Source: Bacillus sp. FJAT-42315 (GTDB lineage: Bacteria; Bacillota; Bacilli; Bacillales; Domibacillaceae). Taken from it: a DNA stretch of 64,000 bases. The position numbers and the translations under genes were made by a program. This document shows positions 25,949 through 62,795 of this stretch, piece by piece (the first letter of the stretch is position 1; every line of letters starts with the position of its first letter). The stretch is from contig NZ_KZ454941.1 of assembly GCF_002797375.1 (NCBI RefSeq), forward strand, positions 2,932,118-2,996,117, given 5' to 3'. The notes under the pieces were generated by a model. It was not told where the DNA came from. It worked only from the letters and a program-made list of their open reading frames with translations, and searched no databases.

Positions 25949-26029
25949 TACGAATCTCCTTTTTATATTCTTTATAAAGAAAATTAGTAAACGTCATCAT
26001 TTGTTGCTAAAACACCTTTAATAAGAGGA

Positions 26030-26152
26030 ACAAAGGCTAAAACCGCAACTTCCTGTTGCAACGCCTTTGTAACCTGCATCTTGCAGGCCCGAACGGATCG
26101 GGCATTTACGGGCTGTTGAGGTGGAAGTCTTACAACCCGTTAATGCGGGATA
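26030..26152 (+). ncRNA. Highly structured RNA-like segment, probable relic of a TnpB-element right end
   Basis: Consecutive hairpins in 120 bases: ACAAAGGC/GCCTTTGT enclosing GCAAC/GTTGC; CCTGCA/TGCAGG; GCCCGA/TCGGGC; then ACGGG/CCCGT competing with CCCG/CGGG in a pseudoknot-like arrangement. No ORF supports a coding role except a truncated gene that reads into its 3' end from the other strand. The layout recalls omega RNAs, but the identity is not proven. The flanking 25949-26029 and 26153-26248 stretches hold only the gene fragment described below. Confidence 0.45.
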
Positions 26153-30294: not shown

Positions 30295-30427
30295 TCGAAG
30301 AAACACTTATTAAGGTCGAAGAAAATTAACTATCATCGAAGAAACACTCATTAAGGTCGAAGAAGATTAACTATCATCGAAGAAACACTCATTAAGGTCG
30401 AAGAAGATTAACTATCATCGAAGAAAG
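30295..30427 (+). repeat. 41-bp-period tandem array, locus 1
   Basis: Seven TCGAAGAA cores at 30295, 30316, 30336, 30357, 30377, 30398 and 30418, alternately 21 and 20 bp apart. Spacers are CACTCATTAAGG-like and GATTAACTATCA-like. It lies between the pdaA 5' end and the fumarase terminator, the one locus where the GAAGAA strand opposes both neighbours. Confidence 0.9.
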
Positions 30428-33312: not shown

Positions 33313-33480
33313 CTTCTTCGATGTTGTTAGCCTTTTCCTCGACTTTTCTGCTCATTTCTTTGACCTTGCTAGCTCTTTCTTCGACTTTCTGATCGTTTCT
33401 TTGACCTTGCTAGCTCTTTCTTCGACTTTCTGATCGTTTCTTTGACCTTGCTAGCTCTTTCTTCCACTTTCTGATCGTTT
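33313..33480 (-). repeat. 41-bp-period tandem array, locus 2
   Basis: On the minus strand, about four periods of TCAAAGAA-N12-TCGAAGAA-N13 with spacers ACGATCAGAAAG and AGAGCTAGCAAGG; the distal copies degenerate. It begins at the stop codon of the antiporter gene and reads in the same direction. Confidence 0.9.
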
Positions 33481-40095: not shown

Positions 40096-40295
40096 TCGAA
40101 AAGCGGAAGGCGCCGTTTAACGACGTATGAACTGGAACGAGCCGATCGAGATAAAGGAAACACGATGAACGTAGTGAATCGATGTTGACTTATCGCAAGG
40201 AGGAACGTGGAAGTTCACTAGTCGTTGGCGCTTGGAGCTAGACAAATCGAAAAGCGGAAGGCGCTGTTCAGTGGCGTATGAACTGGAACGAGCCG
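40096..40295 (+). repeat. Palindromic interspersed element A, full copy plus 5' partial copy
   Basis: Full copy 40096-40244: starts GAAAAGCGGAAGGCGCC and ends GGCGCTTGGAGCTAGACA. Stem GCGCC-gttt-AACGAC / GTCGTT-GGCGC. A partial copy of its first ~50 bases follows at 40246-40295 and runs directly into repeat array 3. Compare 60971-61140. Confidence 0.8.
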
Positions 40296-40300
40296 AAAAG

Positions 40301-40452
40301 TCGAAGAAATCTCTCGTAAGGTCAAAGAAAGTGTTCGTAAAGTCAAAGAATGGTTTAAAAGATTGAAGAAATCTCTGTATAGTCGAAGAACTTACTCAGA
40401 ACATCGAAGAAATAGCGACAACATTGTAGAAAACGTTCGTAAGGTCAAAGAA
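40301..40452 (+). repeat. 41-bp-period tandem array, locus 3 (degenerate)
   Basis: Eight cores (TCGAAGAA, TCAAAGAA, TTGAAGAA, TTGTAGAA) at 40301, 40322, 40343, 40363, 40383, 40404, 40424 and 40445: steps 21, 21, 20, 20, 21, 20, 21. Spacers are diverged. It lies downstream of the symporter gene, in sense. Confidence 0.85.
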
Positions 40453-47890: not shown

Positions 47891-48028
47891 GCCGGGACTG
47901 TCCGAAAAGTGATTTTTCAGCCCGGAAATTAAAAATAGCAAAAGCCAAGAATGCCGTAAAATCAACATTCTTGGCTTTTTATTTTCGGTGCTTTTTACTC
48001 GAAAATTGACTTACTGGACAGCCCCGGC
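47891..48028. repeat. 138-bp imperfect palindrome (MITE-like), also the convergent terminator
   Basis: Ends GCCGGGACTGTCC and GGACAGCCCCGGC are inverted repeats; the centre is AAAAGCCAAGAATG / CATTCTTGGCTTTT. The arms pair imperfectly throughout (~60 bp each). It sits between the convergent ampS and LysR genes. The hairpin-only structure with GC-rich terminal repeats resembles a small non-autonomous element; no target duplication is seen. Confidence 0.6.
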
Positions 48029-50686: not shown

Positions 50687-50702
50687 GCCAATCACTCCAA
50701 CA

Positions 50703-50739
50703 AGCCGCCTGAAAGATGATGTTTCAGGCGGCTGTTTTA
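50703..50739 (+). terminator. Terminator of the thioesterase gene
   Basis: AGCCGCCTGAAA / TTTCAGGCGGCT with a 7-nt loop, then GTTTTATT. Confidence 0.88.
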
Positions 50740-50759: not shown

Positions 50760-51345
50760 CCGAAGAACGATCTCGTAAGGTCAAAGAAGTGAGCAGAACA
50801 TCGAAGAAAGCACCGGCAAGGTCGAAGAAACATGCAGAACATCGAAGAAAGCACTGGCAAGGTCGAAGAAACATGCAGAACGTCGAAGAAAACACTGGCA
50901 AGGTCAAAGAAACATGCAGAACGTCGAAGAAAGCACCGGCAAGGTCGAAGAAACATGCAGAACGTCGAAGAAAGCACTGGCAAGGTCGAAGAAGCAAGCA
51001 GAACGTCGAAGAAAGCACTGGCAAGGTCGAAGAAGCAAGCAGAACGTCGAAGAAAGCACTGGCAAGGTCGAAGAAGCAAGCAGAACGTCGAAGAAAGCAC
51101 TGGCAAGGTCAAAGAAACATGCAGAACGTCGAAGAAAGCACCGGCAAGGTCGAAGAAACATGCAGAACGTCGAAGAAAACACTGGCAAGGTCAAAGAAGT
51201 GAGCAGAACATCGAAGAAAGCACTGGCAAGGTCGAAGAAACATGCAGAACGTCGAAGAAAGCACCGGCAAGGTCGAAGAAACATGCAGAACGTCGAAGAA
51301 ACCACCGGCAAGGTCGAAGAAACATGCAAAACATCCAAGAAAGAT
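50760..51345 (+). repeat. 41-bp-period tandem array, locus 4 (largest)
   Basis: 29 half-units, ~14.3 periods, with cores at 50760+41k and 50781+41k, no indel over the whole 586 bp. Half-units are TCGAAGAA (or TCAAAGAA)-ACATGCAGAACG and TCGAAGAA-AGCACTGGCAAGG with small variations. All six frames are open in the middle (50914-51024); these ORFs are products of the repeat and have no ribosome sites. The remaining 51346-51640 holds the mreBH upstream region: a TATAAT at 51535-51540 with an imperfectly spaced TTGACC at 51509. Confidence 0.95.
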
Positions 51346-55497: not shown

Positions 55498-55609
55498 TTC
55501 TTATCAAGAGAAGCCGAGGGTACTGGCCCTAGGACGCTTCAGCAACCAGCCGATGATCGGTCCGGTGCTAACTCCAGCAAACGATTTTATTCGTTTGACA
55601 GATAAGAAG
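55498..55609 (+). promoter_or_regulatory. SAM-I (S-box) riboswitch
   Basis: Contains the S-box signatures: CTTATCAAGAGAAGCCGAGG, GGACGCTTCAGCAACC, GGTGCTAACTCC and the closing P1 strand AGATAAGAAG. When SAM is bound the downstream terminator forms and yitJ-metH are switched off. Confidence 0.95.
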
Positions 55610-60500: not shown

Positions 60501-60970
60501 AAAAAGAGCCATTCCTTTGCCTAGCCGATTATTTAAAACCTGTTGACAGCGGCGAAATCGATTACGTTGGTTTGTTCGTCGTCACGGCTGGCTTCGATGT
60601 TCGTAATCAAGCCGCCAAATTTAAAGAAAAAGGCGAATTCCTGCAAAGTCATGCGATCCAGTCTACGGCGTTAGAACTTGCGGAAGGCTTTGCTGAACGC
60701 ATCCACCAAGAAATGCGCGACCAATGGGGCTTCCCAGATCCCATCGACTTCACAATGAGAGAACGCTTCGCCGCCAAATACCAAGGCCAGCGCTTCTCCT
60801 TTGGTTACCCGGCCTGTCCGAACTTAGAAGACCAAACAAAACTATTTAAACTATTGCAACCAGAAGACATCGGCGTCCACCTCACCGAAGGCTACATGAT
60901 GGAACCCGAAGCAAGCGTATCCGCCATCGTATTCGCCCACCCAGACGCAAGATACTTTAATGTGGAATAA
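57527..60970 (+). CDS. metH: Cobalamin-dependent methionine synthase MetH
   Basis: 1147 aa, all four modules. Homocysteine domain ([22 protein letters not shown], ~1-320); pterin/CH3-THF domain ([15 protein letters not shown], ~345-600); B12-binding cap and Rossmann domain with the cobalt-ligating His in [13 protein letters not shown] (~735); AdoMet reactivation domain ending [17 protein letters not shown] 57527 lies after AAAGAGGG, inside yitJ. Needs cobalamin; no uptake or synthesis genes lie in the window. Confidence 0.95.
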
Positions 60971-61140
60971 CGAAAGGCGAAAGCGGCTGTTTAGACTCGG
61001 CAGACATCAGGCGGACCGTCTAAGTGGTGTTTTTTGCCACATAGACGTGACGACTTATGTCCGAGAGTCTAGCCGCTGGAGCTAGACAATAACGAAAGGC
61101 GAAAGGCGCTGTTCAGCGACGTATGGACTGAAGCGATCGG
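60971..61140 (+). repeat. Palindromic interspersed element B, full copy plus 5' partial copy
   Basis: Full copy 60971-61088, starting CGAAAGGCGAAAGCGGCT and ending CCGCTGGAGCTAGACA; partial copy of its start at 61089-61140. Stem AGCGGCT-gttt-AGACT / AGTCT-AGCCGCT; inner stems GTCTAAGTGG/CCACATAGAC and GACAT/ATGTC. Begins right at the metH stop. Confidence 0.8.
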
Positions 61141-61154
61141 ATCGAGATACTGGA

Positions 61155-61409: not shown

Positions 61410-61435
61410 AGTAGCTTTTTAGAGACGGCTTGGCG

Positions 61436-61668
61436 TTCTTTGACCTTACTACTGCTTTCTTCCACTTTCTGCTCGTTTCTTTGACCTTGCCAGCGCTTTC
61501 TTCCACTTTCTGCTCGTTTCTTTGACCTTGCCAGCGCTTTCTTCCACTTTTTACTCGTTTCTTTGACCTTGCCAATACTTTCTTCCACTTTTTACTTATT
61601 TCTTTGACCTTGCCAACGCTTTCTTCCACTTTCCAATCATTCACTTAACCTTACGAGCACTTTCTTCA
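61436..61668 (-). repeat. 41-bp-period tandem array, locus 5
   Basis: On the minus strand, about 5.5 periods of TCAAAGAA-ACGAGCAGAAAG and TGGAAGAA-AGCGCTGGCAAGG. The complementary cores recur at 61436, 61477, 61518, 61559 and 61600, exactly 41 bp apart. The array begins within the stop codon of the pentapeptide gene (TGAAGAAA) and reads in sense. The two antisense-looking ORFs here are repeat products. Confidence 0.92.
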
Positions 61669-62304
61669 TTTAATATTCAAGCCCAATAATCGAGAAAAAG
61701 CGATAGCCTGTTCTTCAGACACGGTACATCCTGCTAATTTCTCTGCTGAGACCTTAAGTTCGTGAAATTCACAGCTACTCAGGTCGATTCCATTAAGTGA
61801 CGTGCCTTCAAAGTTTGCTTCATCTAAATTGCATTGATTAAACTCGACTTTATCCAACTGACATTCATAAAAATCCCCACTTTGAATGGCACATTGTTGA
61901 AACTTCACCTGCTTCAATTTTGCATAACCAAACGAAGCTAATCTTGCCTGACACTCTTCAAACACGACATTACGCAACACCGCATCTGCAAAATTCAAAC
62001 CCAATAATTTAGAGTTTTTAAACTCGACTCGATGAACACTTCCATTGCAAAATTCGGTATTGGACAAATCGCATTTATCAAAAATAACATCAACCAATTC
62101 AACAAATCGAAAGTTCACATCAATGAAAGAAACATTTTCGAAAACGACTTGATCAAATTGGATTCGCTCAATCTCTTCCCCGACAATGGAGCAATCACGG
62201 ATCACGCATTTCTTAAAATAGTGCTCTTCTTTTAAATCATTAAACTCAACTGAAGTTACATTTTGCGGGATTTTCGGTTGGTGAATTTTAAATAGATTAG
62301 TCAT
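61666..62304 (-). CDS. Pentapeptide-repeat protein
   Basis: 212 aa, right-handed beta-helix predicted from A(D/N)LxX-type repeats (NFADAVLRNVVFEECQARLA, EANFEGTSLNGIDLSSCEF). Length and repeat style resemble Qnr/MfpA-like DNA-gyrase-binding proteins, but no such activity can be claimed. Its stop codon starts repeat array 5. Confidence 0.82.
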   Translation of the reverse strand: MTNLFKIHQPKIPQNVTSVEFNDLKEEHYFKKCVIRDCSIVGEEIERIQFDQVVFENVSFIDVNFRFVELVDVIFDKCDLSNTEFCNGSVHRVEFKNSKLLGLNFADAVLRNVVFEECQARLASFGYAKLKQVKFQQCAIQSGDFYECQLDKVEFNQCNLDEANFEGTSLNGIDLSSCEFHELKVSAEKLAGCTVSEEQAIAFSRLLGLNIK

Positions 62305-62462: not shown

Positions 62463-62579
62463 TAAGAAGAATTATTTTTGTTCAGTAAGGATTGATAAGT
62501 GTTACAACTTTCCGTCTGGAAGATTTTAGAGCAAGGATAGTAACAAAATGTGTGTACAGCACACGAGGAGGAAACAATA

Positions 62580-62780
62580 ATGGAACAAGGTAAAGTGAAA
62601 TGGTTTAATGCAGAAAAAGGTTTTGGATTCATCGAACGTGAAGGCGGAGACGATGTATTCGTTCACTTCTCAGCTATCCAAGGTGAAGGCTACAAATCTT
62701 TAGACGAAGGTCAAGCTGTAACATTTGATATCGAACAAGGTCAACGTGGATTACAAGCGACTAACGTTCAAAAAGCATAA
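62580..62780 (+). CDS. cspD: Cold-shock protein (CspB/CspD family)
   Basis: 66-aa single-strand nucleic-acid-binding protein. RNP1 KGFGFIE and RNP2 VFVHF are intact. ATG 62580 follows GAGGAGG; 10 upstream codons belong to the leader. Acts as an RNA chaperone. CspD versus CspB cannot be settled by eye. Confidence 0.9.
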
Positions 62781-62795
62781 TTGCTACCATATATA

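Follow-up and report, generated by a model that had tools for sequence, protein, structure and literature searches.

The genome of Bacillus sp. FJAT-42315 carries a dispersed family of intergenic arrays in which a short word, built around the 8-bp core TCRAAGAA, returns every 20 or 21 bp, i.e. about every two turns of the helix. Our leading but tentative explanation is that these arrays are rows of putative sites for a sequence-specific DNA-binding protein, which would serve as roadblocks or insulators behind terminators.

The window, i.e. the whole 64-kb stretch of DNA analysed here, had been described in an earlier note as holding five such arrays of one architecture. All five are real: chains of cores with at most one mismatch and steps of 20 or 21 bp were found at every locus (Table 1). 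The common architecture holds in part. Steps of 20 or 21 bp occur everywhere, but the two lengths alternate less strictly at loci 2 and 3, and the odd cores of locus 5 read TGGAAGAA instead of TCGAAGAA. A loss of the 41-bp phase at other loci had been named as evidence against the family; at locus 3 the steps are 21, 21, 20, 20 and 21 bp, and strict alternation is gone while each single step is still 20 or 21 bp. The claim that array 4 keeps its phase without an indel was borne out, with 21/20 alternation across all its cores. Its consensus unit is AACG TCGAAGAA agcactggc AAGG TCGAAGAA acatgcag, and the terminator finder gives a gap of 18 between the terminator and the first core. With TRF, loci 1, 2, 4 and 5 gave a period of 41 bp, the rows of that period having 0% indels, and locus 3 gave no such period. 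The spaced pairs TCRAAGAA-N12-TCGAAGAA and TCGAAGAA-N13-TCRAAGAA match the window 18 and 20 times, respectively, against no match in each of 100 dinucleotide shuffles.

Table 1. Arrays of the first family in the window and the terminator that precedes array 4 (window positions).
Feature	Position	Strand	Description
Array 1	30295-30425	+	7 cores TCGAAGAA; steps alternate 21/20 bp
Array 2	33314-33466	-	8 cores, mostly TCGAAGAA/TCAAAGAA; final steps 21, 21, 21
Array 3	40301-40411 (strict rule); to 40452 (looser rule)	+	6 (strict) or 8 (looser) cores, degenerate
Intrinsic terminator of the gene upstream of array 4	50702-50738	+	~20 bp before array 4
Array 4	50760-51341	+	29 cores; 14 repeats of 41 bp
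Array 5	61416-61628	-	11 cores, odd TGGAAGAA, even TCAAAGAA; flanked by convergent genes

We compared five members of the genus: the genome of this window (G000, 3.71 Mb), its sister genome G004, and G001, G002 and G003. A 52-bp sequence model built from 28 segments matched G000 136 times at E ≤ 1, G001 eight times and G003 seven times; the last two are drafts of ~50 and ~120 contigs, and their counts may be too low. The search of the genome and its relatives proposed in the note thus uncovered a family much larger than five loci. A chain search of selected G000 stretches gave 34 arrays of 2 to 44 half-units, 33 on contig C1 and one on C2 (136 kb), and G004 has 15 arrays by the same search. 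Three weak loci of the model (L075, L079 and L094) gave no chain. The longest array (G000:C1:285387-286276) has 44 half-units in 890 bp, with even cores TAGAAGAA, and two smaller arrays lie near it at 283.5 and 284.1 kb. The array on C2 (14512-14745) has 12 cores, and genes nearby resemble a calcium-transporting ATPase and vanY in plasmid matches.

Among the genomes searched, the family is essentially confined to the genus, and the idea of a widely spread repeat is not supported. Among 61 genomes ranging from near to far, the model at E ≤ 0.001 matched four of the five genus members and none of the 56 genomes outside the genus. A pattern of paired cores matched seven of 397 genomes of the order, with 74 pairs in G000, 81 in G004, three in G003, two in G001 and none in G002. 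The remaining three genomes (G187, G344 and G384) have one match each, with in-phase chains of 3, 3 and 2. We regard these single matches as being at the level of chance, because a backwards control pattern likewise matches once or twice in scattered genomes. Scanning a contig collection, from which records of the genus itself may be absent, with an exact 33-base pattern gave four single matches in unrelated organisms and a longest chain of 2, and array 4 had no match in a plasmid collection. G002 has no member of the family, and G001 and G003 have few; the function of the family is therefore dispensable. The earlier statement that no such family had been described agrees with our searches of the open-licence literature, a scope that leaves most subscription papers outside: neither the layout, nor bacterial intergenic repeats of this kind, nor the words themselves led to a description. 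In Rfam at gathering score, the window matched only a SAM riboswitch and a Bacillaceae-1 RNA, and none of the arrays. We rate the arrays as a kind of dispersed 3'-end repeat rather than as a new category.

The phasing seen in the window holds genome-wide. Across the 49 arrays of G000 and G004, 333 of 392 core-to-core steps measure 20 (155) or 21 bp (178); another 18 measure 41 bp, which corresponds to one missing core, and each remaining step length occurs only once or twice. The general 41-bp unit is AAAG-TCGAAGAA-N9-AAGG-TCAAAGAA-N8. With a single unit drawn from each array (48 and 44 arrays), the word AARGTCRAAGAAA carried 0.7-2.0 bits at most of its positions, against 0.1-0.7 at linker positions. 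The family thus consists of many intergenic copies of an asymmetric word of 12-13 bp, with linkers that drift around it, as is expected of a protein-binding array. Linkers are 78% and 76% identical within arrays and only 33% and 35% between them; cores are 91% and 86% identical between arrays, values that are too high, since the arrays were recognised by their cores. A CRISPR-like array is rejected on the same ground, the linkers within an array being alike (76-78%).

A test that avoids most of this circularity uses the AARG that precedes the core. It had no part in the detection of units, but the sequence model spans it, so that the test is blind for units and not wholly for loci. At seven of the nine sites that are orthologous between G000 and G004, namely where both genomes have a complete unit, AARG is identical in 50 of 56 positions (89%), whereas the remaining positions of the unit, cores excluded, agree in 58 of 119 (49%; p = 1e-7). 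The detected cores at these sites are identical in 103 of 112 positions, and the flanking DNA is 75-88% identical. Since AARG and cores are conserved while linkers diverge, both the word of 12-13 bp and its spacing of two turns are probably under purifying selection.

Arrays lie at the ends of genes. We classed 38 of the 49 by the orientation of flanking reading frames of at least 100 codons (11 remained unclassed) and found 22 between convergent, 15 between co-directional and one between divergent genes. The 53 gene pairs of the window comprise 11 convergent, 32 co-directional and 10 divergent ones, which makes the convergent excess (p = 4e-4) and the divergent deficit (p = 0.02) of arrays significant. 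Many of them also sit right behind a terminator. One that faces the array within 130 bp was found for 23 of 49 arrays (the finder gave none for the other 26), and for 26 of 35 blocks of the second family described below, compared with 54 of 300 random positions; these positions include coding DNA, so part of the enrichment reflects mere location at gene ends. The gap to the terminator is at most 30 bp in 23/26 cases for the first family and 17/26 for the second.

One type of hairpin (CCAGAAARTCAGT-loop-ACTGACTTTCTGG) follows 14 of the 49 arrays, and in 13 it is in phase with them. In 11 arrays the left arm of the hairpin coincides exactly with the half-unit due 20 bp past the last core; two further hairpins, at 41 and 61 bp, were counted as in phase with a decayed core in between, and the remaining one stands apart from its array (59 bp; G004 422957). 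Eight of the G000 arrays with this hairpin share a left end, GTGTCC (five exact, three with one mismatch), and their right hairpin ends near CTTTCTGGACAGCTCC, such that the left GTGTCC and the right GGACAGCTCC, or a close variant, are mutually inverted. Most of the eight have near-identical units. They look like a dispersed element with inverted ends. Ends of this type were not found for most of the 49 arrays, and plasmid searches with them, aimed at an origin from a mobile element such as a MITE or insertion-sequence derivative, revealed no annotated element, the sole match being a featureless one of 38 bp beside a catalase gene. A separate element of 132 bp (window 47894-48025) has ends, GGGACTGTCC and GGACAGCCCC, that resemble those of the array-bearing element; copies with 99% identity occur at three places in G003, and the G003 site orthologous to the window position lacks it and has a different terminator hairpin.

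Sister species often differ at the same site. The locus 1 site has a degenerate array in G003 and none in G004, G001 and G002. Two cores remain in G003 at locus 2, where G001 and G002 have none of the TCRAAGAA type and G004 has an AATYAGTCG array with 21-bp steps; at locus 3 G003 again has two cores and the other relatives none. The array of locus 4 is missing from all four relatives, and G003 retains a single TCGAAGAA directly behind the terminator. For locus 5, G004 has an 11-core array, G003 keeps a remnant and G001 a degenerate array. More generally, nine of the 15 G004 arrays occupy sites of G000 arrays, with core counts (G004 versus G000) of 11 v 2, 17 v 2, 14 v 4, 5 v 2, 7 v 4, 9 v 6, 9 v 44, 10 v 8 and 11 v 10. 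Because sites are shared and counts differ, we conclude that many array sites are inherited and that their lengths change fast.

The array found in G004 at the locus 2 site belongs to a second family, with the word AATYRGTCG, steps of 21 bp and blocks of 4-6 cores, in G004 and G001. These two genomes hold both words. Pairs of the AATYAGTCG type number 49 in G004, six in G001 and zero in G000, G002 and G003, and a single further pair occurs among 24 genomes of the taxonomic family (in G019). A class-wide scan of 398 genomes for the second word matched 21, with 43 matches in G004, 13 in G001 and one in each of the other 19; the scan of the order matched five of 397 genomes, including the distant G170. 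Of the 35 blocks of at least three cores listed from G004 and G001, 20 have six cores, 11 have five and four have four; none is longer. One of the 23 G004 loci (L203) gave no block. Blind extension of the phase from one pair at 13 loci gave five or six in-phase cores at 12 of them and four at L138, with noise on both sides beyond; L138 also reaches six cores once one 20-bp step is permitted. Linker positions carry 0-0.3 bits, apart from the one that directly follows the core (0.5). Cores in odd and even places tend to be different, a trait shared with the first family, and several copies start behind one type of terminator. In G170, which belongs to another family of bacteria, the related word ATCRGTCG forms real arrays that are longer, with steps of 21 and 18 bp; one of them (L209, on contig C6) has 23 cores with 21-bp steps and four steps of 18 bp. 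That one second-family locus of G004, at the locus 2 site, coincides with a G000 array does not speak for a rule by which one word replaces the other.

How could such arrays work? We favour a DNA-binding protein that sits on one face of the helix, since the word is fixed and asymmetric, the linkers are free, and neither folding (in seven of the eight strands tested) nor coding fits. We favour an effect on RNA polymerase past the terminator because of where the arrays are found, next to the ends of genes, with convergent neighbours and often a terminator just before them. The putative protein would recognise the asymmetric 12-13 bp of AARGTCRAAGAAA, in copies two turns apart and facing the same side of the helix. 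Placed at 3' ends, mostly convergent and often right behind a terminator, the arrays would halt RNA polymerase that reads through. New copies may disperse in the form of short units, part of which end in a terminator-like hairpin, and tandem duplication would then lengthen the arrays. The near-identical units at several loci also fit a selfish repeat.

That repeat is the main rival: a neutral or selfish hairpin-bearing sequence dispersed in gene-end gaps where it is tolerated and lengthened by replication slippage, the word being shared by recent homogenised copies. We consider it a real possibility, if on balance an unlikely one. Presence and copy number shift fast between species, as it predicts (17 versus 2 and 9 versus 44 cores at shared sites), the eight G000 arrays with a common GTGTCC end, a hairpin and, in most of them, near-identical units look like copies of one element, and linkers within arrays resemble each other as they would after recent duplication. 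Recent copying should, however, preserve linkers as well as the word, and whereas the word keeps close to 90% identity, that of linkers is down to 49% at orthologous sites and to 33-35% between arrays; the near-random linkers of the second family raise the same difficulty. A neutral repeat therefore accounts for spread and turnover, but not for a slow word beside fast linkers.

A role of the arrays in organising the chromosome, through a nucleoid protein, segregation or nucleoid occlusion, is much less probable. To place the loci we set the origin of G000 near 0.09 Mb of C1 from gene order, dnaA not having been located: the start of the contig was recognised by eye as what we take to be the lysS-to-coaX run of B. 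subtilis. Base skew in G000 flips between samples at 1.95 and 2.10 Mb, and the origin of G004 was set to 0 by synteny and skew. After joining same-strand neighbours within 10 kb, the half of the chromosome around the terminus contains only six of 31 loci in G000 and two of 14 in G004, and three of the 21 second-family loci of the latter genome (Kolmogorov-Smirnov test against uniformity, p = 0.001-0.003). An unrelated control repeat, ATGTTGACTTATCGCAAGGAGGA, is also thin there, with 12 of 27 loci in G000 and 11 of 29 in G004, and the arrays differ from it marginally (Mann-Whitney p = 0.05, 0.08 and 0.06; Fisher 0.05, 0.16 and 0.11). The mapping relative to origin and terminus that had been suggested earlier thus did reveal a thinning at the terminus, but one that barely exceeds that of an unrelated repeat.

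Strand gives a similar picture. The purine strand of the array is the leading strand at 22 of 31 loci in G000 and 12 of 14 in G004; for convergent loci, at which the direction of genes offers no explanation, these numbers are 14 of 16 and six of six, and for co-directional ones 10 of 14 lead, a class in which gene and fork direction are confounded. The second-family word is on the leading strand at 14 of 21 loci (p = 0.19). The control repeat is polar in the opposite way, with six of 27 (G000) and four of 29 (G004) leading, and G000 and G004 are not independent, since nine of the 15 arrays of G004 have an orthologous array in G000. We gave the thinning and the polarity little weight because the control repeat shows that they are in part a general feature of these genomes. 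The role in packaging or segregation that the note had proposed is not supported, the family being absent from G002, rare in two drafts and hardly thinner at the terminus than the control.

Sinks for gyrase or supercoiling between convergent genes, in the manner of E. coli BIMEs, appear very unlikely. The preference of arrays for convergent 3' ends would suit them, and six second-family cores at 21 bp span ~126 bp, close to the size of the gyrase wrap. Yet the array unit is not palindromic, and a fixed word of 9-13 bp exceeds the specificity of gyrase, whose sequence preference is looser. The comparison also draws on REPs at 3' ends, which the excerpted source gives as gyrase targets (PMC3733652).

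We attach still less probability to an element acting in RNA, either as an unstructured purine-rich transcript of the array or as a Rho/NusG site on the other strand. One strand is purine-rich, and on the opposite strand TTCTTTGA resembles a NusG pause motif, but the word of the second family is not purine-rich while its layout is equal, and it is hard to see what a spacing of two turns would mean in RNA. The repeated RNA motif that had been offered earlier finds no backing in folding, as seven of the eight strands tested are no more stably folded than shuffles lead one to expect: the six strands of three first-family arrays gave z of +1.25, +1.34, -2.23, -0.32, +0.66 and +1.11, and both strands of one second-family array -0.91 and -0.80, so that only the strand at -2.23 folds better than most shuffles. 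A protein-coding repeat was rejected because 41 bp with 20/21-bp steps shifts the frame at every unit, although the frames in array 4 happen to remain open.

The closest known parallel to the favoured protein-bound rows is in phages. Stoperators of cluster A mycobacteriophages, bound by the L5/TipsytheTRex repressor, are asymmetric 13-mers present in more than 20 copies per genome in short intergenic spaces; their orientation matters, and the bound repressor halts transcription elongation, according to the excerpt of the source (PMC9283540). The arrays too consist of an asymmetric intergenic word of ~13 bp in many copies. They differ from the stoperators of that excerpt, dispersed phage-genome sites of a known repressor, in being phased rows of 2-44 sites on a bacterial chromosome. 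In a stoperator-type test of orientation, the arrays follow the direction of replication at 20 of 22 convergent loci and 10 of 14 co-directional ones, the latter being confounded. By analogy, the arrays may work like stoperators; we do not claim that they are stoperators. A more far-reaching and doubtful idea is that the arrays behind terminators are fast-evolving, phased and protein-bound, that the word switched between species (TCRAAGAA in some, TCRAAGAA together with AATYRGTCG in two) while the two-turn, two-type layout was kept, and that they would thus form chromosomal stoperator dialects.

Were they protein-bound, the arrays would be a chromosomal counterpart to phage stoperators and a way to make gene ends tight that is not encoded in RNA structure. 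Sister species would then be natural experiments, with 17 versus 2 or 29 versus no cores at the same site, that would bear on read-through, on convergent genes and on the passage of forks. Even if they are neutral, two unrelated words that share a two-turn layout within one genus call for an explanation.

Other known repeats are more distant. REP/BIME sequences are dispersed and mostly intergenic, with a preference for gaps whose flanking genes are convergent or co-directional, and in E. coli they are gyrase targets, as excerpted (PMC3733652). The arrays resemble them in location, with 22 convergent and 15 co-directional among 38, but REPs are there palindromes of 20-40 bp, while array units are non-palindromic and have a two-turn step with free linkers; AARGTCRAAGAAA is asymmetric, and one of six first-family strands folds better than most shuffles. 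The TAACTGA direct repeats of Beggiatoaceae are likewise short and occupy many intergenic regions of one lineage (PMC4679880, excerpt). They are heptamers, however, the majority lie just before a start codon, and the excerpted text describes no two-turn linker layout.

Plasmid iterons are direct repeats about two turns apart, often in ~5-7 copies, bound by one protein. The arrays share this spacing, but iterons belong to one replication origin and arrays to dozens of 3' ends. The operator of CtsR consists of RGTCAAA heptamers, two boxes one turn apart, in promoters. AAGGTCAAAGAA includes the heptamer GGTCAAA, which we take as a lead only; arrays have one heptamer per two turns and lie at 3' ends.

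The surroundings of the arrays in the window contain further elements. A dispersed repeat at 40099-40297 adjoins array 3; it holds the control word ATGTTGACTTATCGCAAGGAGGA, which has 58 matches in G000 and 38 in G004, with tandem runs of ~150 bp. Together with the sequences at ~60970-61150 and 62567-62782, it represents dispersed repeat families with many copies in relatives. The gene of a pentapeptide-repeat protein (61669-62304) adjoins array 5, and the two Rfam matches lie at 55498-55608 (SAM riboswitch) and 26021-26087 (Bacillaceae-1 RNA).
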